Shown in pieces: positions 872-62,802 of a stretch of 64,000 nt of DNA (positions within the stretch are counted from its first letter, which is position 1; every line of letters starts with the position of its first letter). The notes below the pieces were generated by a model. The model did not search any database. It saw only the letters and a list, made by a program, of their open reading frames with translations, and had not been told where the DNA came from. The DNA comes from Pyropia yezoensis (lineage: Eukaryota > Rhodophyta > Bangiophyceae > Bangiales > Bangiaceae), in contig CM020620.1 in assembly GCA_009829735.1 (NCBI GenBank), positions 13,203,420-13,267,419 on the forward strand, given 5' to 3'. A program made the position numbers and the translations under genes.

Positions 872-2818
872 ATGGCTAGCTCGGATCCCCCGTCGTCCGG
901 GGAGTACACGGGTGACGCACGTACTTCAGTGCCTTTGAATACTGGTGAGACACAGGTGGGTTTACCTGGGGTCGCAGAGGGACTAGAGGTCCCTCAAGCC
1001 AGCAGGACTGGAAGTACGGGCGGGCAACAGGCCACCCCGACTCAGTCGGGAGTTCACTCGGGTGACACTTCTGATGTGGGTGGGCCGAAGTCTGGCCACC
1101 GTGTGGTATACTCAACGGGAACGTCCCAAGGGGTGAGGACTGTCCCCGCGGGCTCCACTCGGGTTGGAGCCAACTTTGGCTTGGAGCCGTCGCCAACTAG
1201 GCTTTCGGAGGACGGCGGACCTCCGTTGGTCGGCGATGGGCTCGCGCCCATGCCCCCGGTTGAGACCCCTGAGGAACGTGGTTACCCCTCAGGTGGACTC
1301 CCGGAGGCGGACCGAGACTCAACTGGAGTCGTCAATCCACTCCTCGCGGAAACTGTCCGTCGGGAGGCGACCAATGTGTTGCGGCAGACTTTGCCGGACC
1401 TGGTGGTCACGATGACGAATACTATTCTGAATCAAATTGTGGCGAGTTTGCCAGATGGCCTTAATGTCCAGACCGGATTGGGGCTTTCGAGCCCGCAGGC
1501 GCAGGGGGAATCTCCCCTGACGCCTATTCCGGGTTGCCCCGAACAGGGGGGGACCCCTGTGACTCCCAACGTGGGAGTCGCACCATTCTCGGTGGGGCGT
1601 ACGCCCTTCACGGGGGAGTTCCCCTCGGAAACGCCGGCGGCTACACCAAGCTCGCCGTACCAGACTACAGGCGCTGAGGGTCAACTTACCCCAGTGCCAC
1701 AGCGGCTGTTCCCTCAACGTGAGGTGCCGCCCAAGATCCAGGTAGCCAACCCGGTCTACCAGGGGATCTTTGACTGCGCGACCTACGCCCTCCAAAACAA
1801 GTCCGTGGTGCATGGTCCTGTCCAGGCCCGAGCCATGGGTCGTGCCAAGAAGAATGCACTTCATTCATTTGGGCACAAAGCGGAGTGGGATGGAACTCCC
1901 CCCCTCCGTGTCTTTGAGTTCCTACGTCGTTTCACAAAAGCCTGTGACGACAATGCCATAAGTGAAGGCATGGCTTTTTACATGCTACAGGAGTTTACGA
2001 AGGGAGACCTGCGGACAGAACTTATGTCCGTCATGCCCAGCTCCTCAAGTGGGGGCGCTGGGGAGGTGACGTCCTATTTGGAGCTCGTCAACTGGTTGTT
2101 GAGGGCCATGGTTGATGAAGCGGCGCTGGCTTCTCAAGTCGAGGAGTTTACGCAAGCCCATCGGGAAGAGGCGGAGGACGAGTTTTCCTTCGCGGAGCGA
2201 GTCCGTAAGCTCAACAATCTTTGTGGGTTTCTTCATCCACAAGCTGTGGTGAAGAGTCGGTTTGTGGAGGGACTCCACTGGTCAGTCCGGATGGAGACCC
2301 GGGAGCATAACACTGCCAGGGCGACCCTGGCCGAGTTGGCTAGGTTCGCCTACCGCAGAGGTGAGGCCTACCGCAAGTTGCGGGAGGAACAACGCCAGGA
2401 GCGTCAGGCCGAGTTGGCCAAGGAACGGGAGGAGGCGCGCCGAGCCAGAGAGTTGAGAGAGGCACGCCGAATCCGCAAGGAGAGGGTGGTAGCTGCCGTG
2501 GGAACTTCCCAGGGTACCTCTTCGTCTTCCCCAGTCGGGAAGACCCCTCCCGGAACAGACAATCGGTGTTGGAACTGCAACTCCGATGGACACTGGGCAT
2601 GTGATTGCCCCAAGTTGAGTAAACGCATCCAACAACTTGTTAGGAATGCGAGTAAGAAGTCGGCTACGAACGAAGTACGTTCACGCCGCGAGGGTGGACC
2701 TCGACCGGTAGTGGCGGTCGCCACACCCTCGGCGGAGGAGGCGGACACGTCGTCCTCGGACTCGTCGTCTTCCCCCTCGCCCTCAGATTCGGACGCCAAG
2801 TCGGCGGGAAACGAATGA
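872..2818 (+). CDS. gag: Gag polyprotein of element A
   Basis: Structural protein that packages the retrotransposon RNA in cytoplasmic virus-like particles. From the ATG at 872 it is 648 residues. The open frame extends a little further, but only with a GTG. Residues 1-290 are Pro/Gly/Thr-rich and probably disordered. The middle (about 300-480) matches the retrotransposon-Gag capsid pattern (FEFLRRFTKAC, ELVNWLLRAM, RVRKLNNLCGFL). It is followed by a highly charged helical stretch (about 500-545). One CCHC zinc knuckle, C-x2-C-x4-H-x4-C, starts at residue 566 (CWNCNSDGHWACDC). The tail is Ser/Asp-rich. The TGA overlaps the pol ATG (ATGA) just after the frameshift heptamer at 2806-2812. Family B gag shares the layout and core motifs. 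Confidence 0.9.
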   Translation: MASSDPPSSGEYTGDARTSVPLNTGETQVGLPGVAEGLEVPQASRTGSTGGQQATPTQSGVHSGDTSDVGGPKSGHRVVYSTGTSQGVRTVPAGSTRVGANFGLEPSPTRLSEDGGPPLVGDGLAPMPPVETPEERGYPSGGLPEADRDSTGVVNPLLAETVRREATNVLRQTLPDLVVTMTNTILNQIVASLPDGLNVQTGLGLSSPQAQGESPLTPIPGCPEQGGTPVTPNVGVAPFSVGRTPFTGEFPSETPAATPSSPYQTTGAEGQLTPVPQRLFPQREVPPKIQVANPVYQGIFDCATYALQNKSVVHGPVQARAMGRAKKNALHSFGHKAEWDGTPPLRVFEFLRRFTKACDDNAISEGMAFYMLQEFTKGDLRTELMSVMPSSSSGGAGEVTSYLELVNWLLRAMVDEAALASQVEEFTQAHREEAEDEFSFAERVRKLNNLCGFLHPQAVVKSRFVEGLHWSVRMETREHNTARATLAELARFAYRRGEAYRKLREEQRQERQAELAKEREEARRARELREARRIRKERVVAAVGTSQGTSSSSPVGKTPPGTDNRCWNCNSDGHWACDCPKLSKRIQQLVRNASKKSATNEVRSRREGGPRPVVAVATPSAEEADTSSSDSSSSPSPSDSDAKSAGNE

Positions 2819-2851
2819 CCGTTGGAGCTGGCCGTCCGAAGCTCACAACGG
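2806..2851 (+). promoter_or_regulatory. -1 ribosomal frameshift signal at the gag-pol junction (element A)
   Basis: GGGAAAC (2806-2812) is phased G-GGA-AAC in gag, so slippage by -1 enters the pol frame. A 6-nt spacer (2813-2818, containing the gag stop) precedes a stem. CCGTTG (2819-2824) pairs with CAACGG (2846-2851) and GAGCT (2825-2829) with AGCTC (2840-2844), with one bulged A and a 10-nt loop. Heptamer, spacer and stem match known -1 frameshift sites. Reinitiation at the overlapping ATGA is an alternative. Confidence 0.8.
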
Positions 2852-5800
2852 CAGCCTCGGCCAAGTGGGCCAAGAGGACGAACCAACCGTGCCGGATACT
2901 GCGGCGACCAAAGCGAGTCCGCCCACTTCGGGTAGGACTCCCCAAGAACGTAAACCCACGTCGGGTCATCGCGGTGCTGACGGGTGAGAACTTCCAGGTG
3001 GCTGGACGGGTGCAACTTGCCCCCGGCCGCGCCTGTTGTGCCCGTATCGTACTTGATACCGGGTCAGGAGCCTCCTTGATACGCAAGTCGCCATTATCAA
3101 AGGAGGTGAAGCTCCAACGCTGGAGGTCCAAAGCTGACCATATGATGGACATCAATGGTGGGGTACTTCCCATCGTTGGTGCCGTGACCCTACCAACTAG
3201 GTTGGGGACCCATGAGGTCGACGTGACCTATGGTGTAGTTGAGAATATATCGGTACCCCTGCTTCTGGGTACCCCTTATGTTGTTACACAAGTGCCTTTG
3301 ATTTGTGGCCCTGAGTACTGGGTCAAGTTGATGAATGGGGAGACTATCCCCATCCTTGGTAGGGGAAAGTCTGTGGCTCCTGTGACAGTCTCACAGTCGA
3401 AGCCTGTTTGCTCTGTGAGAGAAGGGTTTACTGCTACCCTGCGTTTAGCCCGTAAAGTCACGTTGCCCCCCAACTCGGTGGCGCACGTTGACGTTGTAAC
3501 TGATTATACGGGGAACGGGTTGGTGCACCCTTACCCCCGTCTTGCTCGCAAGCACCAAGTGCATGTTGCCCTTGGCACGATGGACTCCAAAGCCGGAGTC
3601 CCGTGGAGGATCCAGGTGATGAACCTGAGCTCGTCGCCCCAGTACTTCAAGTCGGGAGCCAAGTTCGGCTATATCGACCAACACGAGGGACCGGTAGTAG
3701 CGGTCACCCTCAACGCGGGCGCAAGTAGCGACCCGAAGTCCGGAAAGGAGAAGCATCAAGCCAAGTCGGCCGCCTCTCCTCGACCCCATGTGAACATGGA
3801 GGGTGTTCCCCCCAGGTTGAGGGTTCAAGTTGAACGCCTCTTGGACCAGTATCACAAGTTGTGGGATGGTCAATTGGGACTCATGAGAGCTACCCAACAC
3901 CGGATCGAGTTGAAGCCCGGTGCACCCCCTATACGCCAACAACCGTATAGGGGAGGACCCCGTTCAAGGGCCCTCGTTAAGGAGCAAGTTGCTCGCATGG
4001 AGGCCCTCGATGTGATCGAGGCCAGCAACGCCGAGTGGGCGAGTCCGGTGGTTATCGTCCCCAAAGTTGATGGGACTCCCCGGTTCTGTATCGACTACCG
4101 TAAGCTCAACGAGAGCACGGTGAAGGACAGTTATCCCCTACCTAGGATGGACGACTGTCTGGACTTTCTGGGGGAGGCGAACGTGCTCTCCACCCTGGAC
4201 TGTAACGCGGGGTACTGGCAAATTCCCATTGCCCCGGAGGACAGGCATAAAACTACCTTTACCTGTCACTGTGGTACCTACCAGTGCAAGCGTCTACCGT
4301 TTGGTCTGTGTAACGCGCCGGCAACTTTCCAGCGCGCTATGGACATGATTCTGGCCGGAGTACGGTGGCAGATCTGTGTTGTGTACCTAGACGATATTAT
4401 TGTGTTCTCCCGAAGTCCGGAGGAACACATTGGCCATCTTGGCCAGGTGTTCAAGCTACTTGCTGACGCCGGTGTGTCACTGAAGGCGAGTAAGTGCCAC
4501 CTCTTCACTCTAGAGGTGGAGTACTTGGGACATGTTGTCCGTCCGGGGCGTCTCAGTGTTAACGAGAAGAACTTGAGGGCCATCCGTAAGGCTCAGTACC
4601 CCCGGACTCAGACCCAGATGAGGAGCTTCCTCGGGATGTGCAACGTGTACCGACGTTTCACCAAGGGCTTCGCCAAGGTGGCGAAACCGTTGAATGAGCT
4701 AGTGAGCTCAACGCTACCGAAGAACCTGCCTCCCCCAAGTCGGGTGGAGCAGGAATCCTTTGAGACTCTTCGGGACCTTCTGATGAAGCCCCCTATCCTG
4801 GCTATTCCCAAGTTGGGAGGCTACTACATCCTGGATGTGGACGCTAGCTACGATCAACTTGGTTGTGGGTTGCTTCAGCCGCAGCCGGACAAGGAGTACT
4901 TGCCGGTGGGATACTTCAGCAAGGGGCTGAACTCGGCCGAGAAGAACTACGGAGTCACCGAGTTGGACGGACTCGCAGTGGTGTGGGCGGTGACGTCACT
5001 TCGTCACTACCTGGAGGGTGAGAAGTTCCTCATCCGCTGTGACCACCGCGCGTTGCAGTTCATCTTTAAGACGGACTGTACGAACACTCGTCTCAATCGG
5101 TGGAGGGTGCGACTGGCACCCTTCAACTTTGATATTGAGTACCAACCTGGCAGGCAACATGCCCTTGCCGACGGCCTCTCTCGGGTCCCTACCGAGGGGC
5201 TGGACGCTAACCCATTCGATGAGGACATCCCCATCGTGGGGGTAGTCACGCGCTCGGGTCAGGCGTTGAACCCCGAGGCGCCAGGGAACAAGAAGTACTT
5301 GCCCCTGTCCCTGGACGAGGTGGTGAAGGCCCAGGCCGAGGATCCCTTCTGCAAGTCGCAGAGGGATACACTGGATACAGTGGCGGAGACGCGGTTCTTC
5401 CTGGGAGACGATGGCCTCCTCATGAGGAGGGGGGTATTCCAGGGGACCGAACAACTTGTCGTCCCCGCATCCCTCAAGGGCAGTATCCTTGAGAGGGAGC
5501 ACAACGCTCCCACGGGTGGACACCTGGGGTCTAGTAAACTGTACCAGACCCTGAGGACCAGGTACTACTGGCCGTCCATGGTGGTGGACATCTACAGTTG
5601 GGTGGCTGCCTGCACAAGTTGTGCACAGAACCGTCTGATGGAACGGCGGCCTAGTACGGCTATGCTATTGTTCCCGGCCAAGGAGCCCTTCGCCGCGTTG
5701 GCGATGGACATCCTTGGGCCACTGCCAGTGACCGAGGAGGGCAACCAGTACCTCCTGGTCATCTGTGACCGCTTCACAAAACTTACGCGAGCGATCCCAC

Positions 5801-6798
5801 TGGCAGAGATCACGGCCATGTCGGTCGTGTCAGCCTTCCTTGATCACTGGGTTGCCGCGTATGGCATTCCGGATAGTACACTATCGGACAATGGACCGCA
5901 ATTTGCGTCTGTACTGTTTCAGGGAGTGCTGGATATGTTGGGGGTTAAGGCAAACTATGCTACCCCCTACCACCCACAAACTAACGGGCAGGTGGAGCAC
6001 TTCAACAAAACTATTGTTCGGCAGCTGCGCCACTATGTGAGTGAGCACGTGAAAACGTGGGACCAATACATTTCTATTCTTACTACTGCCTACAATTCGC
6101 AGGTTCACTCATCTACCGGGGAAGTACCCCTCGCTTTTGTGACCCCCCGTCGCGTGCGGTCTATTGCTGTGCGGCGGTCGCTCCCAACTAGGGAGGATGG
6201 TGGCAGTACGCCTACTCCTACTGAGAGTAAGGCGGAGTTCGCTGCTAGACTTGAACACCTCATCCCTAAAGTCAGGGCTGAGATGGACAAAGCACAAAAG
6301 CGCTACAAGCGTACCTTTGACAAAAAGGTGCGCAACGCCAAGCATGTCCCCGAGCAGGGTGACTGGGTATTGGTCCACTCACACACCCCAACTGGGGGTA
6401 AGTTGGTATTCCAGACGAAGGGGCCGTACCAGGTCCTTCGTACTGATGGGCGGCGCTTCACCATCGAAAGTGACGATGGGGTCCGCACAGTGAACGGACA
6501 GGACGTGGTCAAAGTTGCACCACCGCCTGCAGGCGACCCAGCTTGGGCGCGTGCTTTGGAAGCGTGGCGCCTCCCCTCACTGCCTGTGGCCAAACAGGGC
6601 CCGCAGGAGTACGTGTTCGATAAGTTCATCGACCACGGATGGGATGAGGACACTAACCGCCTCATGTTGAGGGTGCGTTGGTTTGGCAACAAAGCCAAGG
6701 ATGATACGTGGGAGTATGTGGAGGACCTTCCCGCTGAGAAGGTCCGGGCGTACTGTGCCCGGAATGAGATAGACCCTAACAGCCCTCCCTCAACGTGA
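2815..6798 (+). CDS. pol: Pol polyprotein of element A (PR-RT-RH-INT-chromodomain)
   Basis: 1327 residues counted from the ATG that overlaps the gag stop; in vivo it is probably made as a Gag-Pol fusion by -1 frameshifting. Aspartic protease DTGS starts at residue 81. Reverse transcriptase spans about 390-570 with the catalytic YLDD at 524-527. RNase H begins near 670 (DVDAS). Integrase has an HHCC zinc-binding region near 895-930 (EHNAPTGGH...CTSC). Its catalytic core has D965, D1025 and E1061, a DD35E spacing. A chromodomain-like module (about 1265-1315, VFDKFIDHGW...LRVRWFG...DTWEYVEDL) marks it as a chromovirus and would direct integration towards particular chromatin. The frame is fully open, so this copy may still encode active enzymes. 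It ends 111 bp before the convergent antisense ORF. Confidence 0.95.
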   Translation: MTVGAGRPKLTTAASAKWAKRTNQPCRILRRPKRVRPLRVGLPKNVNPRRVIAVLTGENFQVAGRVQLAPGRACCARIVLDTGSGASLIRKSPLSKEVKLQRWRSKADHMMDINGGVLPIVGAVTLPTRLGTHEVDVTYGVVENISVPLLLGTPYVVTQVPLICGPEYWVKLMNGETIPILGRGKSVAPVTVSQSKPVCSVREGFTATLRLARKVTLPPNSVAHVDVVTDYTGNGLVHPYPRLARKHQVHVALGTMDSKAGVPWRIQVMNLSSSPQYFKSGAKFGYIDQHEGPVVAVTLNAGASSDPKSGKEKHQAKSAASPRPHVNMEGVPPRLRVQVERLLDQYHKLWDGQLGLMRATQHRIELKPGAPPIRQQPYRGGPRSRALVKEQVARMEALDVIEASNAEWASPVVIVPKVDGTPRFCIDYRKLNESTVKDSYPLPRMDDCLDFLGEANVLSTLDCNAGYWQIPIAPEDRHKTTFTCHCGTYQCKRLPFGLCNAPATFQRAMDMILAGVRWQICVVYLDDIIVFSRSPEEHIGHLGQVFKLLADAGVSLKASKCHLFTLEVEYLGHVVRPGRLSVNEKNLRAIRKAQYPRTQTQMRSFLGMCNVYRRFTKGFAKVAKPLNELVSSTLPKNLPPPSRVEQESFETLRDLLMKPPILAIPKLGGYYILDVDASYDQLGCGLLQPQPDKEYLPVGYFSKGLNSAEKNYGVTELDGLAVVWAVTSLRHYLEGEKFLIRCDHRALQFIFKTDCTNTRLNRWRVRLAPFNFDIEYQPGRQHALADGLSRVPTEGLDANPFDEDIPIVGVVTRSGQALNPEAPGNKKYLPLSLDEVVKAQAEDPFCKSQRDTLDTVAETRFFLGDDGLLMRRGVFQGTEQLVVPASLKGSILEREHNAPTGGHLGSSKLYQTLRTRYYWPSMVVDIYSWVAACTSCAQNRLMERRPSTAMLLFPAKEPFAALAMDILGPLPVTEEGNQYLLVICDRFTKLTRAIPLAEITAMSVVSAFLDHWVAAYGIPDSTLSDNGPQFASVLFQGVLDMLGVKANYATPYHPQTNGQVEHFNKTIVRQLRHYVSEHVKTWDQYISILTTAYNSQVHSSTGEVPLAFVTPRRVRSIAVRRSLPTREDGGSTPTPTESKAEFAARLEHLIPKVRAEMDKAQKRYKRTFDKKVRNAKHVPEQGDWVLVHSHTPTGGKLVFQTKGPYQVLRTDGRRFTIESDDGVRTVNGQDVVKVAPPPAGDPAWARALEAWRLPSLPVAKQGPQEYVFDKFIDHGWDEDTNRLMLRVRWFGNKAKDDTWEYVEDLPAEKVRAYCARNEIDPNSPPST

Positions 6799-6909: not shown

Positions 6910-8274
6910 CTAGGCATGCATGCTAGACTCTCCCACCCTACGGCCCTCGCCCTCACGTAGAGGCGAGCGGCGAGACCCACGGCGATCCACCCCCGGGGCG
7001 GCCCCGTGGAAGGGGACAGGAGGAAGCCGAGGGGCACGCCGAGGTGGCGGGACCCGGGTGTAACTGCGACCCCGACTTGGGGCCCCCGCAGTAGGTTGAG
7101 TCATATGGTCATCATATGAGGGCACAGCCATAACTATGGGCTTTTCCGGGGGTGGCGCAGTGTGGCGATCCACCCCCGGGGCATACGGGTAGTCCCCGAT
7201 GCCCAACCCCTCTCGTAGGACCACACGGCCGTCGTGAAGCTCACGAGCGACCCACACGAACTGGCGAAGTGCGCCATCGTCCTTGGGCCCACGAGTGGGG
7301 CGGCTCAACATGTGCTCAATGCTCTCCCACTCGATAAACTTGTGGAGGCGGAGCATCTCCTCAAGTAGAGTGAGTTGTCCTGATGAGCACTCCTCAGCAA
7401 CTAGCTGAGGGGTGAGCTGTTCCAGACCTTGGATAAGCCGGAGGGGGAGGTGCCAGAGCATCCCCCGCCGCTGAACACAAGACACCCAGGTCGACATGAC
7501 CTCGAGGAGCCACTGGGTGGCCAACATGGCCCACACCAGGTGATCAGGGCCAGCCGTCAACATGACGGAGCCGAAGTGGTCAAGCAACCGTGGCAGCAAC
7601 GCCGGGAACCCGTAGGGGACCTCAACTTGAGGCCACCACTCGGGCTTCTTCGGATAGTATTGCTCCTTCCTGGCAGCATACTGCTGAGGGAACTCAGGTT
7701 GAGCCGAGGTCACCAAGTAGGGACCTCGCCGGAAGTCCTTCTCCATCCGCACATCAAAGTGATGAGTGTGCGGATCGGCCTCGTGGAGGTACGGTGGGCG
7801 AGCTGCCACCGCGTCCCAAGTAAAGGTCGGCAAGTCGCCGGGACCCGGGATAGTTCCCCCGCGGTCCACCATGGCCTGGGCACGCTGAACGTCCTCAACC
7901 GCCTCATCGTCCAGGAAGGCAAACTGGTCCGTCCTGAAGCCGGCAGGGAACCCGACCCTACGGGGATACTTCTCCCGTAGGCGGTCCCATACCCGACCCA
8001 TCGCTGCGCCAAGTCGGCCACAGCGAAGAACAGTCAACCCCTCCTCATAGAGAGGCCAAGCGGGGTAAAACCACCGCCCCAAGGCCTCACGCGGGACAAC
8101 TTGTCCCGCCTCCGGGGAAGATCCCGCCGTCAACCCAAAGCCGGGTGACGCGGGAGTCCCATCCCCCGGAGCAATCGCGGAGCCCCCGCCAGAAGTCCCG
8201 GCGGGTGCTGCACCGTAGGTGGTGTCCTCCATACGCTCGTCAAGAGAGTCCGTCTCCACTCCCGGGGTCGCCAT
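6910..8274 (-). CDS. Antisense accessory ORF of element A (internally deleted)
   Basis: 454 residues from the ATG at 8274. The frame is open to 8445, but homologues share the context GR-x-MATPGVE, so this start is preferred. It lies between pol and the 3' LTR on the opposite strand, convergent with pol. The central core (about 205-370) is shared with the ORFs of elements B and C. It contains WWPQVEVPYGFPALLP, a DHFGSV segment, ATQWLLEVMSTW, RRGMLWHLPLRL, LHKFIEWESIEHML and LREGLGIGDYPYAPGV. I see no signal peptide, membrane segment or known catalytic motif, so an envelope is unlikely. Relative to element C it lacks roughly 200 residues near the C terminus, including most of an Arg/Ser-rich tail; the junction at 6981-7013 holds duplicated filler. 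Function unknown. Confidence 0.75.
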   Translation of the reverse strand: MATPGVETDSLDERMEDTTYGAAPAGTSGGGSAIAPGDGTPASPGFGLTAGSSPEAGQVVPREALGRWFYPAWPLYEEGLTVLRCGRLGAAMGRVWDRLREKYPRRVGFPAGFRTDQFAFLDDEAVEDVQRAQAMVDRGGTIPGPGDLPTFTWDAVAARPPYLHEADPHTHHFDVRMEKDFRRGPYLVTSAQPEFPQQYAARKEQYYPKKPEWWPQVEVPYGFPALLPRLLDHFGSVMLTAGPDHLVWAMLATQWLLEVMSTWVSCVQRRGMLWHLPLRLIQGLEQLTPQLVAEECSSGQLTLLEEMLRLHKFIEWESIEHMLSRPTRGPKDDGALRQFVWVARELHDGRVVLREGLGIGDYPYAPGVDRHTAPPPEKPIVMAVPSYDDHMTQPTAGAPSRGRSYTRVPPPRRAPRLPPVPFHGAAPGVDRRGSRRSPLREGEGRRVGESSMHA

Positions 8275-8612: not shown

Positions 8613-9081
8613 TGTGGCAGTATTGACCCCCAGGTAGGGGGGCAACACGTGCCATGCAAGGGGCGGCAGGCCACTAGCCTGATCCGTTCCTCCCCCTGCA
8701 TTTGGGTCCATATTCCGTAAGTTTGGGATAGTTAGCTTAGTAGTAAATCCAACTTGGATTTGAGGGTTTTCTGCATTTATCGTCTTGAATTTTCGTGTGG
8801 CCCGGTGGGCAGGTGCTGGGGTGGGAGATTCTGAGTGGCGAGATTCTGAGTGGACCCTGGGGGGATAAGGGGAGGGACAGCGCGGCTTGGCCCTGCGTCC
8901 CCGTCCCGACCAAGAAACTGTTGGACCACACACCATCCTCTTGCTTGTCCGTGGGGGGTTTGCCCCACAACAGGGACAGAGTGTGTGCGACTTGCACTTC
9001 TTCCGGTTCCCCCGACACGGGAGGCAGCCCTTGTACAGCGCCCCAACTTGGGTGCCGTGTGTGCAAGTGGTTTTTGCCACA
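8613..9081 (+). repeat. 3' LTR of element A
   Basis: 469 bp, starting TGTGGCA and ending TGCCACA, followed by the CACGC duplication. About eight substitutions separate it from the 5' LTR. Confidence 0.95.
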
Positions 9082-9086
9082 CACGC
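9082..9086. repeat. Target-site duplication of element A, right copy (CACGC)
   Basis: Matches 279-283 exactly and fixes the element boundary. Confidence 0.9.
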
Positions 9087-11794
9087 CGTTGATCGGGCAC
9101 GACGGGGCGTGCCTGCAGTCGCGGAAGCGCACCCATCGCGGTCAGGCCGCTGTGCGTCGCTGCCACGGTCGCTGCCACCCGTCGACGACTCTCTGCCCTC
9201 TCTTGCGCGGACGGAAAGGCCAGCCCAACGTCCAACGACAAAGAAGACACAGCTTCATGTGCAGCGCCTGCAGCTCTGGCATTGGGTGGAGATGCACTCA
9301 GTGAGCTTGGCAACTGGTCGGAGCCAGCAAGAGAGGAGGCACAGCTGCCGCCTCCGTCAAACATTGCCGGGTTAAAGCGAGGCGGGGTCTCAAACAAGGA
9401 CGGAAAAGGAATGGAACAGTCACTTGATGTGGCCACGCTCGCGTCCTGACGACTGGCAGCAATCTCGAGTGAAGAACGCGCCGGTCTACCCGGACCGCCG
9501 CTCGGATTTGCGGCATCGCTTGCTACGCCCGCGTCCACGAGAGAGTGGCCACTAGCGCGAGCAGGGACTCCATCCCGCGCCGCTTGACCGGAACCAACCA
9601 CAGCGGACGCCTTGGATCCCGGGCGGGCGGCCGGTCTCCTTGTCGCAACATGGCCAGCTGGTCGGCGTGGCGGGGCAAGATGCAGCGGGGGGCCGGCCTC
9701 AGCACCTGAGGGGCGTGGCGCTTGGGGAGAGCCTTGGCTGGGAGCAGGATGGCTGTCCACCCGCCGCCTCTTTGGAGCTTGCACGATCTGTGGTGTCGCG
9801 TCCGCAGTGGGGGGATTGATGGTGGAATAAGAGGGCAGCGTGCTTGGTTCCGCGGCATCTTCTTGCTCAAGATGTTGACTGCGCGATGGATCCACCATTG
9901 GACGCGAGAGGCGGCGCACTGCGAGACGGCGGGATCTGCTCGCAGCCGCCTCTGACTCCTTCTCTTGAGCAAGCAGCTGTTCCATCTCATTGTAGCGATC
10001 CAGCAAAGAGAGCTCGTCCAAATCCCCATCGCTCGCTGCACGGCCCTCGTCGTAGTCCGCAGCGTCCGCGGTGTCGACAACGTCTGTAATATTTGCTGCA
10101 AGCGCACCGTCCACGGCTTCCTCACCTACGCCAGTAGGCGCTGCAAGATCTCCGGCAGCCGCGCGCGCAGCCCGCGGGAGGGTAGCTGAGCCTTGATCCG
10201 GCGCCGGGGCTTCGCTCGGCACAGGCGCCACGGGCACCACCACGTCGGGGTAGTCTAGGCCAGCGGTCTCGAACTCGTGGCACGTCGCCGCCATGACAGG
10301 GATAGATTTGGGGGCTGGCGCGCGACCCACGGCGACTAACTCGTTCAAAACGTTGCAAAACGTAGCTTCTTTGGTGCCCATCAGCAACAGTGTCGCCACA
10401 GACGTCCCGAGCGGGGCCACGGTGTTGACGCACTTCGGACCAAGCCGAGTGACGCACTCGCGGACTGGCAGGTTCGACTTCTCAAAGTAGCGCTCCGAGT
10501 CGACATTCAGCGCCCGGATGGCGTCGTTGACGCCCGTCATGTCAACTTCAATCGCCCACTTGGAGGACCTCACAGCGCGACAGGGGTGCGAGAGGTAGGA
10601 CACCGTCCCAGGAGGTGGCAATGGCTTGACGGAGGAGGCCGGTCCCTCCCAGACAGGCCACCAGCGATGTGCAATCTTCCTCACGGACTTCCACATGAGC
10701 TGGTCGTCTGCCGCCGGTAAACTGGAAGAACCATTGACCGCTGCCCCGCTGTGCAAGCGCGAAAAGCACAGCAGGCTTTCGATCACAAGCTGCTCCAAAA
10801 GACCTCGCACGTCCTGCCTGACTTTCATTACCTCCAGCACGGTGTTGACGCAGTTGATCGCACCCACGCTTGGGGTGACAAGAGGCTGGGATGCGCTGAC
10901 CACTGGCCCAGCTGCGTCGTCGACATAGATCACGCTGCGCACCGCAACGCTAGGGGCAGCAGGAGCGCCAGTAAGGCCTGAACCCGCCGCCGCAGGTCCG
11001 TAGCCCGCGTTCTTAGGACCTGATGATCGTCGTGCAATAACAATACCGCCGTTCTGCAACAGAGCATCCATGTCTGCAGGATGGGCGGCGCCAGCCGCGC
11101 CTGCCGCCTGCTGAGCCGGACCGGCGCCTGCGACATTCGGCGCGTCGGTCCCAACTTCACCCAGGCCGTCGCCATGCCGCCTGACCACGACACCCCCAAG
11201 AGGTACAGATATGTCGGCGTCATCGTTCGTTGCCGGAGGGGGGCCGACTCCTGGCGTGCCAACCGCGCGAACACAACCCGCCTGACCGCTTGGAGATTGT
11301 AGAGGCCCAGCTCCAGGCCGTCGGTCAGCCACAATGACTCCCGCAGGCGGCGGCTGCGCCAATGCGGCGTCATCATTCGGAGGATGGAGGCCATTGTCAG
11401 CGTCGGGGCGCACATTGCTCAAGCGAACGGCATTGGTGGCGGTAGGATCGTGCACGTCCTGGTGCCGATACGCGTAGGACAGACCGACGTTGACGACACG
11501 GCTGGCATGGTCGTCCGCGTCGCCGAAGAACTCAAGCCGATCTACAATGCGGATCCACCTGTGCTGAGGTGGTGCCCGTGGGTTGTAGGACTGGACCATG
11601 CGACTAACTGCTGAGTGAACAGTGGCGCCAACAGGCGCCAGGTGGATGTCAAGCTGCTTGGCGACGACGTAGAACCGCTTCAGCAGCCGAGCCAACGTCT
11701 GCACCTTCGGCCCGTCATTGATGCCCAACGTCTGAAAGAAGCGCCCGTACTGAACACCGACCTTGCCGGGGATGGGATCCGGCACGCGATCCAT
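9087..11794 (-). pseudogene. Large unknown protein gene, disrupted near its 3' end by element A
   Basis: About 900 codons from the first ATG (11794); the open frame continues upstream only with a TTG. The first ~130 residues look folded (YGRFFQTLGI, LLKRFYVVAKQL, HRWIRIVDRLEFFG), as does a segment around residues 300-500 with motifs such as INCVNTVLEVMKVRQDV and KSVRKIAHRWW. The rest is Ala/Pro/Ser-rich and probably disordered, with basic patches. Element A entered 18 codons before the original stop (see 217-283), so the present frame reads into the LTR. I do not recognise the family. It could be a host gene or an ORF of another mobile element. No introns are obvious. Confidence 0.5.
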
Positions 11795-13302
11795 GACATG
11801 ACAGCACAATCAGAAGAGAAAAACGATACACGAGCGGGAGGAACAAAGGAGAGGCACAACATGTCAGCACGACGGAGAGCACACTGGCACGATTGCAGGA
11901 ACCACTTCGCTTGTGCCGCGAGTACCACTGCACCCGAACCGCAGCCCACCTGAGGCGCCCACAGGCAGCATGAGAAGCAGCCCGTGGTAGCAAATCATAC
12001 GCGATGCTCGCCCGCATAACAACGCACGTACGAAGACACAGGTCAATGCCCGACGCCTCAAATGCCCGGGACTCAGGAGGGTCTACGCCAGCAGCGCGCA
12101 ACAAGGTGGTGGATCGGTGCAAGCAGGACCGCCGCGAAGATGACGCCATGCCGGGCAATGCGCCTGGGTGCCACGTTGGCAGAGCGCGAAGCGCGCGAAG
12201 CGCACCGATTTCGTCGCCAGTGACGTCAGTGCGCGCGCCGCCGAAGACGTGGCCTCGGTCGAGATATGTAGGGCCCCAATCCCCGCCATGCTCAGTCCGC
12301 AAGGTGGCTCCGATTCCAGGCACTGACCCGAAAATCATGTACTCTCTCTGAGGCAGAATCACCCCGAGGCCTGTGGACGAGTGCCGCACACGAGGGGCTG
12401 AAACCGCCACCCCCCGCCGGCAGGCGTGCCGCGCGGGCGCGGGCGCCAGCCGCCCACCCGCCAGCGCGGGCGCGCCCCCCCCCCCCCCCCCCCCGGGCGC
12501 GCGCGGCGCGCGCCCCCCCCCCCCCCCCCCCCCCGACTGAATTCACCAGTCAGATTCACCATAAATGTGGCGGAAGCTATTCGAGGCAATTCCTAGCTCC
12601 TTTGTTGAGCTGAGAGCAGGAGCTCGATGCGAACGTGCCACACTTATTGTGCGTCCCGTAAAAAGTGGACGTGCACAAGTCGTGCAGTGTGGGTTTGATT
12701 GGTCCAGTGACTGATCCTTGACATGATCATGCAGAGGGAGTCAGGGGGAGCGAGGACCGCGGAAACGCCTCGTTCACGTCATTTTAGAGGTGTCCGGGAA
12801 CGCAGTGAGCGGGGGATATCCACCGTCATGGCCCGCAATGGCCCGTGCAGAAGCGATTCCGCAACAAGCTCTGTGGGGCCCACAGTACGGCTTGTGGTCG
12901 TCGGTTGCGCCCCCAGCCGCGTCTTACATGGAGCGCTACAACAAAGCGTTCTGGTACGTTTCCATCGCTGCTTCTTACACACTGGACAGCTCTGCTCCCG
13001 ACGCTTCTATCCGTATGAGATAAGCAGCGTCGATGGACCTAAAGGCCCCTATGTAAAGCACAAACAAAAAACTCAACAGAAAGATGGGCCCACGATGCCA
13101 AAACAATGGCTGCCCTTCAGCCATCGCACTCCCGGGCTTTACCAGCCGCACCCCATCGACTACAACGCTCCCCTGTCGTCCCCCCCCTCGAGGTCCGTAT
13201 CGTCCTTCCCCTGCCCCCCGCCGCTGTGTCCAGTTCTGCGCTCCTTTATCATCTGTGCCCCCCCCTTGGCACCGCCGGTTTCCCTTGCTCATCCCCCTCT
13301 TC
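11795..13302. other. Intergenic stretch with long C runs
   Basis: No supportable gene. It includes two C homopolymers of roughly 20 bases (about 12477-12496 and 12513-12535) separated by GC-rich sequence, then a lower-GC stretch from about 12540. It may contain the promoters of the flanking minus-strand and plus-strand ORFs. Confidence 0.5.
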
Positions 13303-14197: not shown

Positions 14198-14202
14198 AGG
14201 AC
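14198..14202. repeat. Target-site duplication of element B, left copy (AGGAC)
   Basis: AGGAC precedes the LTR at 14203 and follows the other LTR at 26172-26176. Confidence 0.9.
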
Positions 14203-14741
14203 TGTAGCAGTACTCCCAACCACCAACCCCGAGTCAGGGAAGGAAGAGGAGTATTGCCGATATCCCAACTTGGGACACCGGAAGCAAGCACCTCCACACA
14301 GCCGAACACGGAACTTGCGTGTGGTGAGCGGGTCCACTCACCAAGGCACGAACAAGATGTGTCGGAGCCAGACGGTGTTTTCTTGCTTGGCCAGCCAAGG
14401 TGGGCCCTCCCCGCCTTGCTGTCCCTCCTTATCAACCCTCCTCACACGCTCACGCAACCCCTCAAAACACTCAGAAAATGAACCCTCAAACAAACCAATC
14501 AAAGCACTCCACATGCAAAGAACTCAAAGCGTAGAAATCCGTCTGGCTCCCGTGCAAAAATCCCAAGAAACAAATACCAGCAGCATTACCCTGCTCTAGT
14601 ATGTCGGAAGTCCTAGTCGAATTTCCGTCCAGAAGTCAGAAGTTTCACCATCGTGGGTCGGGTGAATTTCGACTTCCGGTCAGGTCCACTTGACCCGAAT
14701 CTTCAAAGTATTGGTACCGAATTCCGGCCCAATCTCCCACA
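14203..14741 (-). repeat. 3' LTR of element B
   Basis: 539 bp; on the element strand it starts TGTGGGAGATTGGG and ends GTACTGCTACA. Two substitutions relative to the 5' LTR at 25633-26171, both in the AATCAAAGCAC/AATCATATCAC segment. Confidence 0.93.
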
Positions 14742-14754: not shown

Positions 14755-15743
14755 AAAAGTCCAGCCGTCCCGGTGGACGTCCAATCAGCGCGAGTCGCAG
14801 TGACCGGGAGAGGAGGATGCAATTCCCGAGTTGAGATGCAAAGTACGGTGCATCGCTGGCGTCTAGCGTGCACCAGGGTTACGCCGGGGTTGCACTCGCG
14901 TCCGGCGGGGCCCTCCGGGAGAGGCAGTCCCTCTCCGTGGGGTGCGCTCTCTGCCCTGACACTGGGTAGAGGAGCCCCCTCCACGCGAAACAGGTGTGGG
15001 GGAAAGTCGTCCCCCACCTGGTCAGGGTGCTCCACGGGTGGACTCACGTGTGGGTGAGCCCCCTAACCTGGGTGTCGGCGTACCTCCGCCACACCCCCTG
15101 CCCCTCAACTGGAGGAGTAGGGCGTCGACGTTCTCACTCGGAACGTCGACCTGCACCTGCCCCTTCAGTTGGGGTACGGTTGCTCTCGGGGGGTCGGGTT
15201 GTGTCCCCCCTTCAGCTCGATCCACCCCCAGCTGGCTCTCTGCGGGGTGTTCCTCACTCCTCCCCTCCCTTTCTAGTCAGGGTTGAGGGGTGTGCGCACC
15301 CCGAGTTGGGGGTGTTGCACTCGGTCGCCGGCGGTGGGACTCGGCCGCCGGTGCGGGGTCTTCTCTCCCCTTCGTGTGTGCGGGCGGGTGTGTGCCTTCC
15401 CGCCGCTGCTCCCTCGCGTCGGCGGGTCTGTCTCTTCCCGCCGTGCGGTTGGTGTCGTTGGTTGGGGTGGTGTCTTCCCCCTTCCGCCCCTGTGTCGGGC
15501 GTCTTCGTTGTCGGTGGGGGCGTGGGTTGTGTTCCCCCCCCTTTGTCCTCGTTGGCGGGGTTGTGTCTTCCCCGCGCTGCCCCTTGTGTCGGGCTTCTTC
15601 GTTGTCGGTGGGGGGTGTGGGTCGTGTCCCCCCCCCTTGCTCTACCTCACCGAGTCGGTCAAGGTTGGTTGTCGTCGGAGGGGGAGCGGGTCGTGTCCCC
15701 CCCCGTGCTCAACCTCACCGAGTCGGTCAAGGTTGGTCGCGTG

Positions 15744-17660
15744 ATGGCGGGTGAGCCGAGTCGGCTTTTGTCCCCGTCTCCGACGTCTCTGTCGGACAAG
15801 CGACGGACGGGAGAGGAGGCCCTCGGGACTGAGGAGTCTCTCAGCCGGGGGTCGGCCATGGAGACGACTCGTCCCGGGCGAGGGTCGGAGGCGGCCGCCT
15901 CAGCCGTCCCCGCCCCATCACCTCCTACTGCCCCCTCGGCCGTGGTCCCACCGGGGGATGGGTCTTCCAACCCGGTGGCGGAAGGGGATGTGACTCCCAT
16001 CCCCCGCTTTCCTGAGTCACGGCTGCTACTCCCGCCGCGGCCCCGTCCTCCTATGGGGCCCCGAGCCTGGGCGCCTCCCAAGTCAGTCGGGGAGCTTCCC
16101 GACTGCAAGCTCAAGGATGTCTACTTGATCATCCCCGAGCCACGGCGGACCGACGTATGGTACCGCCGGACTCGTCGGTACCCCAACCAGGTGACTCTAC
16201 CTGATGGGGTGGTCTGCGACCTACCAGCGCTACTCTGCCTGGCGGACGCGCCTGAAGTCCAGGCGTTGTCAACCTCCCTCGCCTTGGGGTCGGGCGACGT
16301 GGAGATCGACGACACCCACGCGGTTGTGTCTACCGAGTGGTGTGCCCTTCCCCGTCCCTACCTGGGCGGAGAGGACGCCCACGCCCAACACGGCGTGGTG
16401 CGAGAGGAGTTCCGACTCCGGGGCTCCTCGGGCTTCCTCATCCACGGGTCGCGGGTGGAGTTCACCCACGTACCTCTGGAGGAGCGTGAGCACCAGTACC
16501 CTTTTCTCCCAGGGTGGTGGGAGACAGTGGAGGTACCTTGTGGGTTTCCGGCTCGGATCCCCCTCCTCGTTGCCTACTTTGGCTCCGTGCTACGCTCCAG
16601 CTCGGAGGGTAACCGGGTCTTCGCCTACCTCGCCACGCACTGGGTGGTCGTGGTGGCTCGGGGCTGGTACTCCGATGTAGTCCATCGGGGTTACCTGTGG
16701 CACCTCCCACCGGCTCTGGTGGAGGGTATGGAAACCCTTGGCTTCCACTGGTTAGCCTTGGGCGCGGGGGACCTGGCTCCGTTCCTCCTTAAGGGTATGG
16801 TCACCCTGCACAATCGACTCGATTGGGCGCAGCTGGAACCCTTCCTCCGCCGCAACAAGCGTCCAGAGCCGGGGTTGGAGAGTGAGCCACCCCGGGAGTT
16901 CGTCCATGTCACCCATACTCTGGTGCAGGGGCAGCTGCTCTTGCGTGAGGGGTTGGGGGACTCTTCCCTTCCCTACGCAGAGGGGGTTACTCCCTCTACG
17001 TCGCCCCCTGGCTCTGGGTGGGCGACATCATCGGCGACGACTCGTCGTGGTGCTCATCGAGGAGCCCCTCGAAGCCGCGGGCGAGCTGTGCCGACGACTT
17101 CCCCGCGGGTCGCGACTCCGACCTCGGGGGGTGTGGAGCCGACTCAGGCTCCACCCTTCCAGTTCCTCGAGCCCTTCCCCGACGTGGCGTTGGGTTCGCT
17201 ACGGGTCCGAACTCCGGTACCCATGCCGATTGCGCGTGGCGTCGGCGAGATGCTTCCCAACTTGGGAGCCATCATGTATGACGCCACGGTGGAGGCCTCA
17301 CTCGTGGCCTCCCTTGACACGTTGGCTTGGGTCACCCGGCGTGTCAGTCACTTCCTCGCGTCGGGCGACTCAGCCACGGCGCGACAGTCATTGGCAGCTG
17401 AGGTCACTCGCCTCGCGGTTGGACACGAGTTTATCCAACGACTGCTGTCGACTCAGCAGCAGCTTCCGCGTCACGGAGGGAGTACCTCCGGACATCTATC
17501 TTACGACGGGGATGGGTCCGCGAGTCGGCGGGCCCCTCCCAGTGCTTCCACTCCGGGGCCCTCCCGAGTGGGTTACGCCCCTCCGCTACCGGCCTACGAC
17601 CCTGGGGGTTCGTGGTCGGGCGGTCCCTATAGTGGTGGGGGTGGGCATATGGAACGCTAG
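15744..17660 (+). CDS. Antisense accessory ORF of element B
   Basis: 638 residues from the ATG at 15744. The frame is open from 14994, but VGRVMAGEP here aligns with LGRVMATPG in element A, and upstream sequence is repetitive. Antisense to gag-pol, starting near the 3' LTR and ending 128 bp from the pol stop. The core (about residues 255-410) aligns with elements A and C: WWETVEVPCGFPARIP, AYFGSV, LATHWVVVVARGW, HRGYLWHLPPAL, LHNRLDWAQLEPFL, LREGLGDSSLPYAEGV. A second shared region follows (PNLGAIM ... SLDTLAWVTRRVSHFL). The C terminus is Gly/Ser/Pro-rich and lacks the Arg/Ser tail of element C. Function unknown; an intact long ORF retained in two diverged families implies selection. Confidence 0.8.
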   Translation: MAGEPSRLLSPSPTSLSDKRRTGEEALGTEESLSRGSAMETTRPGRGSEAAASAVPAPSPPTAPSAVVPPGDGSSNPVAEGDVTPIPRFPESRLLLPPRPRPPMGPRAWAPPKSVGELPDCKLKDVYLIIPEPRRTDVWYRRTRRYPNQVTLPDGVVCDLPALLCLADAPEVQALSTSLALGSGDVEIDDTHAVVSTEWCALPRPYLGGEDAHAQHGVVREEFRLRGSSGFLIHGSRVEFTHVPLEEREHQYPFLPGWWETVEVPCGFPARIPLLVAYFGSVLRSSSEGNRVFAYLATHWVVVVARGWYSDVVHRGYLWHLPPALVEGMETLGFHWLALGAGDLAPFLLKGMVTLHNRLDWAQLEPFLRRNKRPEPGLESEPPREFVHVTHTLVQGQLLLREGLGDSSLPYAEGVTPSTSPPGSGWATSSATTRRGAHRGAPRSRGRAVPTTSPRVATPTSGGVEPTQAPPFQFLEPFPDVALGSLRVRTPVPMPIARGVGEMLPNLGAIMYDATVEASLVASLDTLAWVTRRVSHFLASGDSATARQSLAAEVTRLAVGHEFIQRLLSTQQQLPRHGGSTSGHLSYDGDGSASRRAPPSASTPGPSRVGYAPPLPAYDPGGSWSGGPYSGGGGHMER

Positions 17661-17788: not shown

Positions 17789-20700
17789 TCATGGTTGGCT
17801 TGCCGCTCTGCTCTGACTTGGAGCAGGGACTTCATCCCCCGACGTACGAGTGCTACGTCGGCGTATAGATATGCCCACAGTCTGGCAGTATCTACGGACC
17901 TTCTCTACTGGTAGGTCCTCTACAAACTCCCATGTGTCGGAAGTTGGTCCATACCCGAACCACCTGACTCGGAGCATGAGTCGCCCCGACTCATCATATC
18001 CGTGCCCGACAAACTTGTCGAACACCGCCTCCAATGGCTTATTGGAAGAGGTCGGCAAGGATGGGACTTTCCATGCTTGCAAAGCCCTTTCCCAAGCGGG
18101 ATCTCCCTCTGGGGGTTCGGGTGCGCGAGTCGCGTGATTCCCATTTATTGTCCGGATACCATCATCACTCTCGATGGTTAACCGACGTCCATCCGTTTTA
18201 AGGATGTGATATGGTCCCAGAGTCTTGAAGACCAATTTCCCTCCCTTATTGTCGTGGGAGTTAACATAAATCCAATCTCCAACTCGGAGCGGATCGCGAC
18301 GATGTCTGACTCGGACATCGAAGTACCTCTTGTAACGGGCTTGGGCCTTCTCCATAGTAGCCCGGACAAGGGGTATCATCTCCTCCAGTCTCTGGAGTAG
18401 GGAGGCTTTCGCCTGACTCGGTGTTTGAGTCGAAGTCTCACCCTCAGTCTGGGTGAGACGCTCCACAGCTACTGACGGAAGTCGTCGGGGGCAGACGAAG
18501 GCAAACGGTGCCTCTCCCGTACTACTATGTATCTGGGAGTTGTATGCTGTCACGAGTAGTGACGCATAACGAGCCCATGTGACTACATGGTCATGGACAT
18601 AGTGACGCAACTGGCGCACTAGAGTCCTGTTGAATCGTTCCACCTGCCCATTAGTCTGGGGATGGTAAGGGGTGGCGAAGTTCGTCTGCACCCCCAACAT
18701 CTTCATGACTCCCTGATACAGGACGGACGCAAACTGTGGTCCGTTATCCGAAAGGATAGAGTCGGGGATGCCATAACTGGCAACCCAGACGTCGAGTAAC
18801 TCACTCAGAACGTCCACGGCTGTGATATCCTTGAGTGGGGATACCCGTGTGAGCTTAGTGAAGCGATCACACATCACCAGAAGGTACTCATATCCTTCAG
18901 GTGTTCGTGGTAGTGGACCGAGTAAGTCCACTGCTATCGCTGCAACCGGCTCTGTTGCAGGAAAGAGTCTCATGGAAGAAGTCTGCCTGGACTCCATGAG
19001 TCTATTCTTTGCGCAAGTCGCGCATGCGGCTACATATCCGTACACATCAGCCACGAGTGATGGCCAATAGTACTTCTTACGTAGGGTCTGATACATTCTC
19101 GTAGACCCTGGGTGTCCACCCAACGGTGAGGAGTGCTCCCGTTGGAGGATACTCTTGCGTAACTCCTTGGGGACGACGACTTGCTTGTCCCCCTGGTATA
19201 TCCCTTACGGCAGAGTATGCCGTTGTCATTCAGGAAGAACCGAGTCGGTTGAGCCTGGTCGAGCTCCTTCCTGAGTCGTCGACAAAGTTTGTCGCTCTCC
19301 TGTGCCTGGACAAACTCATCCAAAGACACGGGTAATAATTTTGGCCATGCCAGGCATCCTCGGGTCGAGGACAGTTCCGGAGCGAGTGGTCACTGCCACA
19401 TGAGGGAGTTCCTCAGGGATAGGGGAAGTGTCTTTCCCATCCGTCGGTATGCGAGACAACGCGTCCGCAACCGCATGCTTCGGGCCTGGCCGATATTCAA
19501 CATCATAATCGAACTCAGCGAGGCAGAGTCGCCATCGATTGAGTCGGTTATTCGTACAGGCTGTAGTGGTGAGTATCCACTTCAAAGCCTTGTGGTCACA
19601 TCGAATGAGGAACTTCCTTCCTTCGATGTATGGCCGTAGCATGGAGACTGCCCATACCACGCCAAGACCCNNNNNNNNNNNNNNNNNNNNNNNNNNNNNN
19701 NNNNNNNNNNNNNNNNNNNNNNNNNNNNNNNNNNNNNNNNNNNNNNNNNNNNNNNNNNNNNNNNNNNNNNNNNNNNNNNNNNNNNNNNNNNNNNNNNNNN
19801 NNNNNNNNNNNNNNNNNNNNNNNNNNNNNNNNNNNNNNNNNNNNNNNNNNNNNNNNNNNNNNNNNNNNNNNNNNNNNNNNNNNNNNNNNNNNNNNNNNNN
19901 NNNNNNNNNNNNNNNNNNNNNNNNNNNNNNNNNNNNNNNNNNNNNNNNNNNNNNNNNNNNNNNNNNNNNNNNNNNNNNNNNNNNNNNNNNNNNNNNNNNN
20001 NNNNNNNNNNNNNNNNNNNNNNNNNNNNNNNNNNNNNNNNNNNNNNNNNNNNNNNNNNNNNNNNNNNNNNNNNNNNNNNNNNNNNNNNNNNNNNNNNNNN
20101 NNNNNNNNNNNNNNNNNNNNNNNNNNNNNNNNNNNNNNNNNNNNNNNNNNNNNNNNNNNNNNNNNNNNNNTCACCCTCAGTCTGGGTGAGACGCTCCACA
20201 GCTACTGACGGAAGTCGTCGGGGGCAGACGAAGGCAAACGGTGCCTCTCCCGTACTACTATGTATCTGGGAGTTGTATGCTGTCACGAGTAGTGACGCAT
20301 AACGAGCCCATGTGACTACATGGTCATGGACATAGTGACGCAACTGGCGCACTAGAGTCCTGTTGAATCGTTCCACCTGCCCATTAGTCTGGGGATGGTA
20401 AGGGGTGGCGAAGTTCGTCTGCACCCCCAACATCTTCATGACTCCCTGATACAGGACGGACGCAAACTGTGGTCCGTTATCCGAAAGGATAGAGTCGGGG
20501 ATGCCATAACTGGCAACCCAGACGTCGAGTAACTCACTCAGAACGTCCACGGCTGTGATATCCTTGAGTGGGGATACCCGTGTGAGCTTAGTGAAGCGAT
20601 CACACATCACCAGAAGGTACTCATATCCTTCAGGTGTTTCGTGGTAGTGGACCGAGTAAGTCCACTGCTATCGCTGCAACCGGCTCTGTTGCAGGAAAGA

Positions 20701-23515: not shown

Positions 23516-23564
23516 CCGCTGGAGCCTTTGGGTCAGTCTTAGTCCCAGCGGCTAGGCGTTTCCC
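23516..23564 (-). promoter_or_regulatory. -1 ribosomal frameshift signal of element B
   Basis: On the minus strand GGGAAAC (23564-23558) is phased G-GGA-AAC two codons before the gag TAG. A 6-nt spacer leads to a 7-bp stem, CCGCTGG (23551-23545) with CCAGCGG (23522-23516), and a 22-nt loop. The pol frame is open from the heptamer. Stem sequence differs from family A while the geometry is kept. Confidence 0.8.
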
Positions 23565-25315: not shown

Positions 25316-25609
25316 CTCCACAAGAGTCACGTGGAGTCAACCAAAACGACCAAACGGTGTCCAGAGTCGGGGATCGTCAGCTAGGGAGTTCCTAGAGCAC
25401 GTTCCACCCCTCCACCTACCACAAGGAAGGCGGTGAGGTTTCCCGAAACTCCGGGTCTCCCACCAAGGCTCACGGTGGCCAACCTCGTCACCCAGCGAAC
25501 GCTCGGAACGTAGGCGAGTCGATCGTGTCACCGGAAGTCTCGGTGCCGAAGGGGGAGAGGGGCCAACTTGGTCCCGTCTCCGGTCAAGGGAGGTACCAAA
25601 GTCGATATC

Positions 25610-25632: not shown

Positions 25633-26171
25633 TGTAGCAGTACTCCCAACCACCAACCCCGAGTCAGGGAAGGAAGAGGAGTATTGCCGATATCCCAACT
25701 TGGGACACCGGAAGCAAGCACCTCCACACAGCCGAACACGGAACTTGCGTGTGGTGAGCGGGTCCACTCACCAAGGCACGAACAAGATGTGTCGGAGCCA
25801 GACGGTGTTTTCTTGCTTGGCCAGCCAAGGTGGGCCCTCCCCGCCTTGCTGTCCCTCCTTATCAACCCTCCTCACACGCTCACGCAACCCCTCAAAACAC
25901 TCAGAAAATGAACCCTCAAACAAACCAATCATATCACTCCACATGCAAAGAACTCAAAGCGTAGAAATCCGTCTGGCTCCCGTGCAAAAATCCCAAGAAA
26001 CAAATACCAGCAGCATTACCCTGCTCTAGTATGTCGGAAGTCCTAGTCGAATTTCCGTCCAGAAGTCAGAAGTTTCACCATCGTGGGTCGGGTGAATTTC
26101 GACTTCCGGTCAGGTCCACTTGACCCGAATCTTCAAAGTATTGGTACCGAATTCCGGCCCAATCTCCCACA
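25633..26171 (-). repeat. 5' LTR of element B
   Basis: 539 bp, ending on its right side with the TGTGGGAG terminus and followed by the AGGAC duplication. Confidence 0.93.
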
Positions 26172-26176
26172 AGGAC
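26172..26176. repeat. Target-site duplication of element B, right copy (AGGAC)
   Basis: Identical to 14198-14202. Confidence 0.9.
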
Positions 26177-26547: not shown

Positions 26548-27014
26548 TGTGGCAAAACCCGCTCACAGTATCCTCCACCAAGTTGGTGGCAACGGTGAGG
26601 GTGTCTCTCGTAACGTTGAGAACCGGAAGAAGTGCAAGTCGCACACGCGCTGTCCCTGTTGTGGGGCAATCCCCCCACTAACAAACAAGAAGATGGTGTG
26701 TGGGCCAACAGTTTCTTGGTCGGGACGGGGAAGCAGGGCCAAGCCCTGCTGTCCCTCCCCTTATCCCCCCAGGGTCCCTCAAAATCTCGCTACTCAGAAT
26801 CTCCCACCCCGGCACCTACCCACCGGGCCACACAAAAATTCAAGGCGATAAAATGCAGGAAACCCTCAAATCCAAGTTGGATTTACTACTAAGCCAACTA
26901 TCCCTACCTTAGGTAATATGAACCCAAATGCATGGGCAGAAACGGGTCAGACGAGCTGCCTGCCGTCCCTTGCATGGCACGTGTTGCCCCCTACCTGGGG
27001 TCAACACTGCCACG
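26548..27014 (-). repeat. Diverged solo LTR of family A
   Basis: Starts TGTGGCAAAACCCG and ends ACTGCCACG, and matches the family A LTR through most of its length with many substitutions, clearly older than elements A and C. No gag or pol sequence adjoins it, and no convincing target duplication is visible (GTAGC on the left, GCAAT or GGCAA on the right). Confidence 0.85.
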
Positions 27015-34154: not shown

Positions 34155-34267
34155 GGCGAGGTATGTGCAGTCCTGCGGCGCCAGGCGCTACTGGGCAAGG
34201 GGGGGGTGAGGGATGGAGAGGTGGGCGGAGAGGAGCCACATCCCCGATGCACGCAACGCCCAGCCAA

Positions 34268-60683: not shown

Positions 60684-60688
60684 GTTGG

Positions 60689-62800: not shown

Positions 62801-62802
62801 TA

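Follow-up and report, generated by a model that had tools for sequence, protein, structure and literature searches.

The window, a 64,000-nucleotide stretch of DNA whose GC content ranges from 45 to 80% by 2-kb window, holds three Ty3/Gypsy elements (A, B and C) traceable from pol into the 3′ LTR. The first, element A, lies on the forward strand. Its 5′ LTR (284–751) and 3′ LTR (8613–9080), as delimited by BLASTN, are 98.5% identical and are flanked by the 5-bp TSD CACGC at 279–283 and 9082–9086; a purine-rich tract is located immediately upstream of the 3′ LTR. The gag ORF (848–2818) encodes a zinc knuckle (zf-CCHC, E 0.0021, under the Pfam cut-off), and pol (2815–6798) encodes RT, RNase H and integrase, together with a protease and a C-terminal chromodomain that are matched more weakly. 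The order RT-RH-IN is clear from the Pfam matches (RVT_1 with E 1.2e-34, RT_RNaseH, Integrase_H2C2 and rve), and the protease match, Asp_protease_2, has an E of 0.14, under the Pfam cut-off. At the integrase C-terminal side of pol, Chromo is matched at E 0.0055 in A and E 0.0017 in B, both under the Pfam curated cut-off.

Element B occupies the reverse strand, with the 3′ LTR at 14203–14741 and the 5′ LTR at 25633–26171 (99.6% identity over a 541-base BLASTN extent), and its TSD is AGGAC (5 bp, at 14198–14202 and 26172–26176). Its gag lies at 23552–25330 (zf-CCHC, E 0.0007, under the cut-off), and the ORFs of its pol at 17789–23513 are split by a 500-N assembly gap with a repeated stretch on both flanks. 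At 18438–20930, about 1.7 kb of the B integrase/pol sequence is duplicated in 100% identical blocks around the 500 N, which is most likely an assembly artefact at the scaffold gap. The paired LTRs and 5-bp TSDs make A and B Ty3/Gypsy LTR retrotransposons, with the RT-RH-IN order shown in A. Element C, also on the reverse strand, shows 94–98% identity to A wherever the two can be aligned (BLASTN), and its 3′ LTR (56640–57107) has 98.1% identity with the A LTR. The C-terminal part of its pol is found at 59502–60143, and the remainder is cut off from it by a nested element of the B family, whose start is at about 60141. This nested copy (60141–64000) is nearly identical to B and exits the window; it is unscorable for the present question because the window ends before its pol–3′ LTR interval.

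Several other features of the window deserve mention. An A-family LTR fragment at 26620–27013, with about 90% identity to the A LTR and no A-family internal-region match adjoining it, is solo-LTR-like. The chromodomains of B (17789–19123) and C (59502–60131) read W-F-G-Y and that of A reads W-F-G-N, a difference that may touch the aromatic cage. On the reverse strand, a 1010-aa open frame at 8777–11809 runs across flanking DNA and part of the A 3′ LTR; its GC3 of 0.63 is closer to the elements than to the presumed host genes, and it has no Pfam match to E 0.01. At 31328–34267 there is an uninterrupted 979-aa ORF with matches to Abhydrolase_1 (alpha/beta hydrolase, 9e-13) and MR_MLE_C (enolase-superfamily C-terminal domain, 7.9e-10), which presumably resembles a MenH-MenC fusion.

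In all three scorable elements, a long frame runs opposite to gag-pol between pol and the 3′ LTR. The antisense ORF of element A comprises 454 codons (6910–8274, reverse strand) in the interval bounded by the stop of pol at 6798 and the 3′ LTR at 8613, and its frame stays open upstream of the ATG at 8274 as far as 8445. That of element B comprises 638 codons from an ATG at 15744 (15744–17660, forward strand, from the ORF list), about 100 bp downstream of two copies of a 94-bp tandem repeat (15455–15639). The start context GRV-ATG-GCG is common to A and B. In element C, a frameshift breaks up the gene at 57446–59390 (forward strand), leaving two ORFs that overlap: a first piece (57446–58177) with 96% identity to A and a second piece in another frame (58023–59390) carrying a C-terminal Arg/Ser-rich stretch that is absent in A. 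The original prediction of one antisense ORF of 450–650 codons per element thus describes A and B correctly and C only as a gene split in two. A and B likewise fall within the size and position definition of aORF-3R genes (at least 250 codons, from pol to the 3′ LTR, opposite strand), with C again split.

Compared with C, the antisense ORF of A is shorter by a net 579 bp close to its C-terminus, an in-frame difference of 193 codons; since C is frameshifted, neither A-family copy in the window is complete for this gene. At the site of the loss in A (6960–7030), a few bases are unalignable to C and by eye are like stretches elsewhere in the ORF; they look as if they had been copied in via template switching. 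As for the divergence between the two copies, the LTRs of A and C (284–751, 8613–9080 and 56640–57107) differ at 8–9 of 468 bases (1.7–1.9%), and the figures are higher outside the LTRs: 49/1268 (3.9%) in the antisense ORF, 17/642 (2.6%) at the pol end and 18/338 (5.3%) in the ORF–LTR leader. The low LTR divergence may reflect either constraint on the LTRs or exchange between the copies.

The window is GC-rich and contains many long ORFs that may not be genes, so ORF length by itself is weak evidence. In order-1 Markov simulations, none of 4000 sequences for the A interval reached 454 codons, the longest being 432 and thus not far short, and none of 2000 for the B interval reached 638 (longest, 478). 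Stronger evidence comes from homology. The A and B antisense proteins share 36% identity over 286 aa (BLASTP, E 3e-43), and the core homology between the A/C and B proteins anticipated in the original prediction, including the VEVP-x-GFPA, LWHLP and LREGLG motifs, is present. In A, the core extends over residues 195–375 (7150–7692, reverse strand, from the alignment and codon test), and its motifs at about these residues are VEVP-x-GFPA, an ATxW stretch, RRGMLWHLP/HRGYLWHLP and LREGLG...PYA. Across 181 aligned codons of the core, 73 residues are identical between A and B, and identity at codon positions 1, 2 and 3 is 0.54, 0.59 and 0.39, respectively. The start taken for the B protein differs by analysis: 14994 in the A–B BLASTP and in the Pfam search with reported domains; 15858 in the gag/pol/ORF identities, the Pfam search to E 10, the NCBIfam search and the B row of the fourfold and codon-position test; and 15732 in the sense-frame stop counts, GC3, the basic-cluster scan and the C-terminal shuffle test.

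The C-terminal parts of the antisense proteins are proline-rich and unlike between the families. A C-terminal domain common to B and C was considered and rejected, since the score of the B–C comparison is equalled or exceeded in 122 of 1000 shuffles, giving no signal above shuffled sequence. As judged from these alignments, homology between the families is limited to the core. The second C piece has three strongly basic, NLS-like clusters in its Arg/Ser-rich stretch, and the same pattern scan, which covered this piece together with A and B, found none in the latter two; a nuclear site is hence unsupported across the family. The claimed mismatch between the LTRs of A/C and those of B holds at a BLASTN E of 1e-5, where a B LTR query matches only B-family LTRs. 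Despite this mismatch the two families are not remote, being 48% identical in gag, 56–64% in pol and 36% in the antisense ORF.

How the frame has been preserved can be read from the substitutions between A and C. Without the deletion junction and the frameshift base, the alignment covers 1268 bases and contains 49 substitutions, of which 33 are synonymous and 16 nonsynonymous, with no stops. When identical base changes were placed randomly on matching bases of equal CpG state (20,000 draws), 14.8 ± 3.1 synonymous changes were expected, with a maximum of 28, and none of the 20,000 draws reached 33. The absence of stops is unremarkable, being expected in 23% of random placements. The resulting dN/dS is about 0.21, a value for one copy pair that is based on the placement null and not on fitting a codon model. 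For the remaining five frames the ratios are 0.42, 1.1, 1.57, 2.0 and 3.63 (2000 draws each), and the same calculation for the pol C-terminus of A versus C, with its 17 substitutions in 642 bases, yields 0.18. Between A and B, only 23 of 66 fourfold third bases at identical residues (A residues 95–375) are shared, which means that synonymous change is about saturated while the residues have been kept. The selection on the antisense frame that the original prediction had claimed is therefore borne out by the dN/dS check named beforehand, in A–C by the ratio itself and in A–B by saturated synonymous sites together with retained residues. A chance ORF in GC-rich DNA was considered and is rejected on the simulations, the A–C codon test and the A–B fourfold sites. 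Judged by its pattern of substitution, the antisense ORF is a real gene under purifying selection at the protein level.

Could a gene on the sense strand have produced the same pattern? Stop codons number 9, 20 and 12 in the three sense frames over the A ORF, and 18, 16 and 18 over its B counterpart. With 9–20 stops in every sense frame, an overlapping sense-strand gene cannot explain the conservation and is excluded, and overlap as its sole cause, the outcome that would have undone the original prediction, is not what was found. The mirrored sense frame does show some constraint (A–C ratio 0.42), and when frame pairs of A and B are aligned with composition correction off, a sense pair reaches 120 bits and another 65 bits, against 164 bits for the antisense ORF frame; the frame numbering of this comparison is not matched to that of the A–C ratio test. 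Because all sense frames contain stops, we read these sense-pair alignments and the 0.42 ratio as shadows both of the antisense constraint and of shared composition.

Another possibility is that the antisense RNA itself matters, for instance as double-stranded RNA or in self-limitation, and that the ORF is incidental. Such roles have been proposed for antisense transcripts of other retrotransposons, according to PMC7264820. An RNA role alone would not yield codon-specific constraint and saturated synonymous sites, which require selection on the protein and so contradict it, and we give this explanation hardly any weight. An RNA role and a protein role could nevertheless coexist.

The composition of the antisense ORFs bears on their origin. 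Their GC3 is 0.69 in A, 0.71 in B and 0.68 in the second C piece, compared with 0.54–0.67 for gag and pol and 0.81–0.92 for four presumed host genes in the window (uninterrupted ORFs with Pfam matches, one of the four, SET, under its cut-off). Being closer to gag and pol than to these host genes, the antisense ORFs are unlikely to result from recent host capture. More generally, one might suppose that a host gene, or a gene of another mobile element, was captured in antisense orientation and is selected for a function in the cell rather than in the element, and the proteins indeed show no similarity to TE proteins in Pfam. Given the GC3 values, and the same place and orientation in both families, we regard such a capture as improbable. 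Since gag, pol and the antisense ORF have all diverged and the ORF keeps its place and strand, the data point to one acquisition before the A/B family split. Most likely, on the sequences compared, the antisense gene was present in the common ancestor of both families and has been kept as protein-coding since.

What kind of protein is encoded? No family in Pfam or NCBIfam matches the antisense proteins; in particular, no DNA-binding domain was detected by Pfam or NCBIfam and no Chromo match by Pfam. Among PDB sequences there is nothing better than E 0.36. No relative was found in viral contigs, in bacterial and archaeal genome contigs or, for the A protein, in phages, and as these collections hold few eukaryotic sequences, the absence of a match there says little. 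One reading of these results is that the proteins are very distant members of a known family, either Transposase_28, as in Retand, or the plant mobile domain found in Ogre. Position and strand agree with those of the Transposase_28 ORFs described in PMC11963269, and there may be a loose likeness in motif layout. Even a Pfam search relaxed to E 10, run on the A and B proteins and on the second piece of C, gave no match, PF04195 and PF10536 included, with the proviso that HMMER filters can lose weak hits; distant membership thus seems a rather poor prospect. Within the libraries searched, the family looks new and is probably undescribed.

Structure prediction offers some hints. AlphaFold gave a mean pLDDT of 32.8 for the whole antisense protein (4 rows) and 49.1 for the core (3 rows), the latter being mostly helical with a strand pair. 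Both models are of low confidence, so no claim is made on the fold. The helical bundle of the core model, as in capsids, and a constraint on the protein nearly as strong as in pol would be compatible with an antisense-encoded protein that serves as a structural component or assembly partner, such as a second capsid-like or Gag-interacting protein. Kinship with the elements' own gag was not supported (hhalign probability 0.2%, a weak test with 2-row profiles), and at a pLDDT of 49 the confidence is too low for fold comparison, the best Foldseek match of the core model, among the best 50 of 71 matches, having an E of 1.4, which is not meaningful. A structural partner therefore appears unlikely to us, if less so than a capture or a distant family membership.

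We propose that the antisense ORF is an accessory gene of two sister chromovirus-type Ty3/Gypsy families, ancestral to both, placed antisense between pol and the 3′ LTR and selected as a protein, which would act in trans and most likely as a regulator; we hold this explanation to be probable, with some reserve. In this scheme, an antisense RNA polymerase II transcript would begin in the leader that separates the ORF from the 3′ LTR, or within the 3′ LTR, and run toward pol. It would be translated into a mostly helical protein, and this protein may serve the element's life cycle in trans, by acting on sense transcription or on nuclear steps, by analogy with plant elements. Among the possible roles, that of a trans-acting regulator would be the likeliest by inference, with particle assembly as its main rival.

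The case matters for several reasons. Two families in one genome with 36% protein identity and saturated synonymous sites provide clear evidence of function, and with one core domain in two families, they make a compact test case for the role of such proteins. If the host is a seaweed, which its base composition would favour, antisense accessory genes extend to another branch of eukaryotes; the GC range of the window and its long unbroken ORFs with Pfam matches and a GC3 of 81–92% would fit a bangiophyte red alga of the Porphyra/Pyropia type. A bolder version of our proposal is that a whole lineage of chromoviruses in red algae carries, in antisense orientation, an undescribed accessory protein family that has no kinship with Transposase_28, the plant mobile domain or chromodomain ORFs and that is required for transposition. 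We consider this version conceivable and somewhat doubtful. If it were true, such genes would have arisen independently in flowering plants, fungi, green algae, red algae and deltaretroviruses, and such repeated origins would suggest that placing a gene opposite the sense transcript is of general benefit.

Turning to known systems, in the open-licence literature searched we found no report of antisense ORFs in red-algal retrotransposons, and a search there for an antisense ORF in a chromovirus returned only the Retand paper (PMC11963269). A 2012 survey reported no retrotransposon chromodomain in the three red algae then available (PMC3350952), and a 2013 account has chromoviruses represented in both green and red algae (PMC3605345), so that the mere occurrence of a chromovirus in a red alga would be no novelty. 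In a survey of plant elements, the extra-ORF proteins of Ty3/gypsy elements fell into 314 groups, and 21.4% of extra-ORF proteins resembled known domains (PMC6317226).

The presence of antisense ORFs in the pol–3′ LTR interval is established for Grande, RIRE2, Retand and PvRetro13, and for the fungal Boty (PMC7264820). A close parallel is with the plant aORF-3R or eORF-3′R genes (Grande gene23, RIRE2 and Retand), which likewise are long ORFs located between pol and the 3′ LTR, antisense and kept across families, as PMC7264820 and PMC11963269 describe them. For Grande, PMC7264820 places a promoter upstream of the antisense gene and its protein in the nucleus, and roles in the regulation of sense transcription or in nuclear steps have been proposed for the Grande gene23 and Retand proteins (PMC7264820, PMC11963269). 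Element B's 94-bp tandem repeat upstream of the ORF also recalls the tandem arrays reported for Retand elements in the same interval (PMC11963269). There are differences as well. Grande, RIRE2 and Retand are elements of flowering plants, and Retand belongs to a non-chromovirus lineage (PMC11963269). Transposase_28 is encoded by 97% of Retand clusters, according to the same source (PMC11963269). The antisense proteins described here have no match to this domain (PF04195), nor to the plant mobile domain of Ogre (PF10536).

In REM1, a chromovirus of Chlamydomonas reinhardtii, a reverse-frame segment reportedly sits downstream of pol. REM1 thus resembles the present elements in being an algal chromovirus with a reverse-frame coding segment, and differs in that this segment carries a GPY/F module and a chromodomain (PMC2774666), whereas here a weak Chromo match ends the sense pol and the antisense protein is without a Pfam domain. 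The claim that no antisense ORF is known in chromoviruses accordingly fails in its general form in view of REM1 (PMC2774666) and needs the limit "with this protein", in which form it agrees with the absence of any match in the libraries searched. Boty-like elements of Botrytis offer a further case of an extra antisense gene, brtn, in an LTR retrotransposon (PMC7264820, PMC8365987); they are fungal, and we liken them by description only. Finally, HBZ of HTLV-1, which is cited in PMC11963269, is an antisense gene of a retroelement and, with no homology claimed, could serve as a working model for the antisense genes of these two families.
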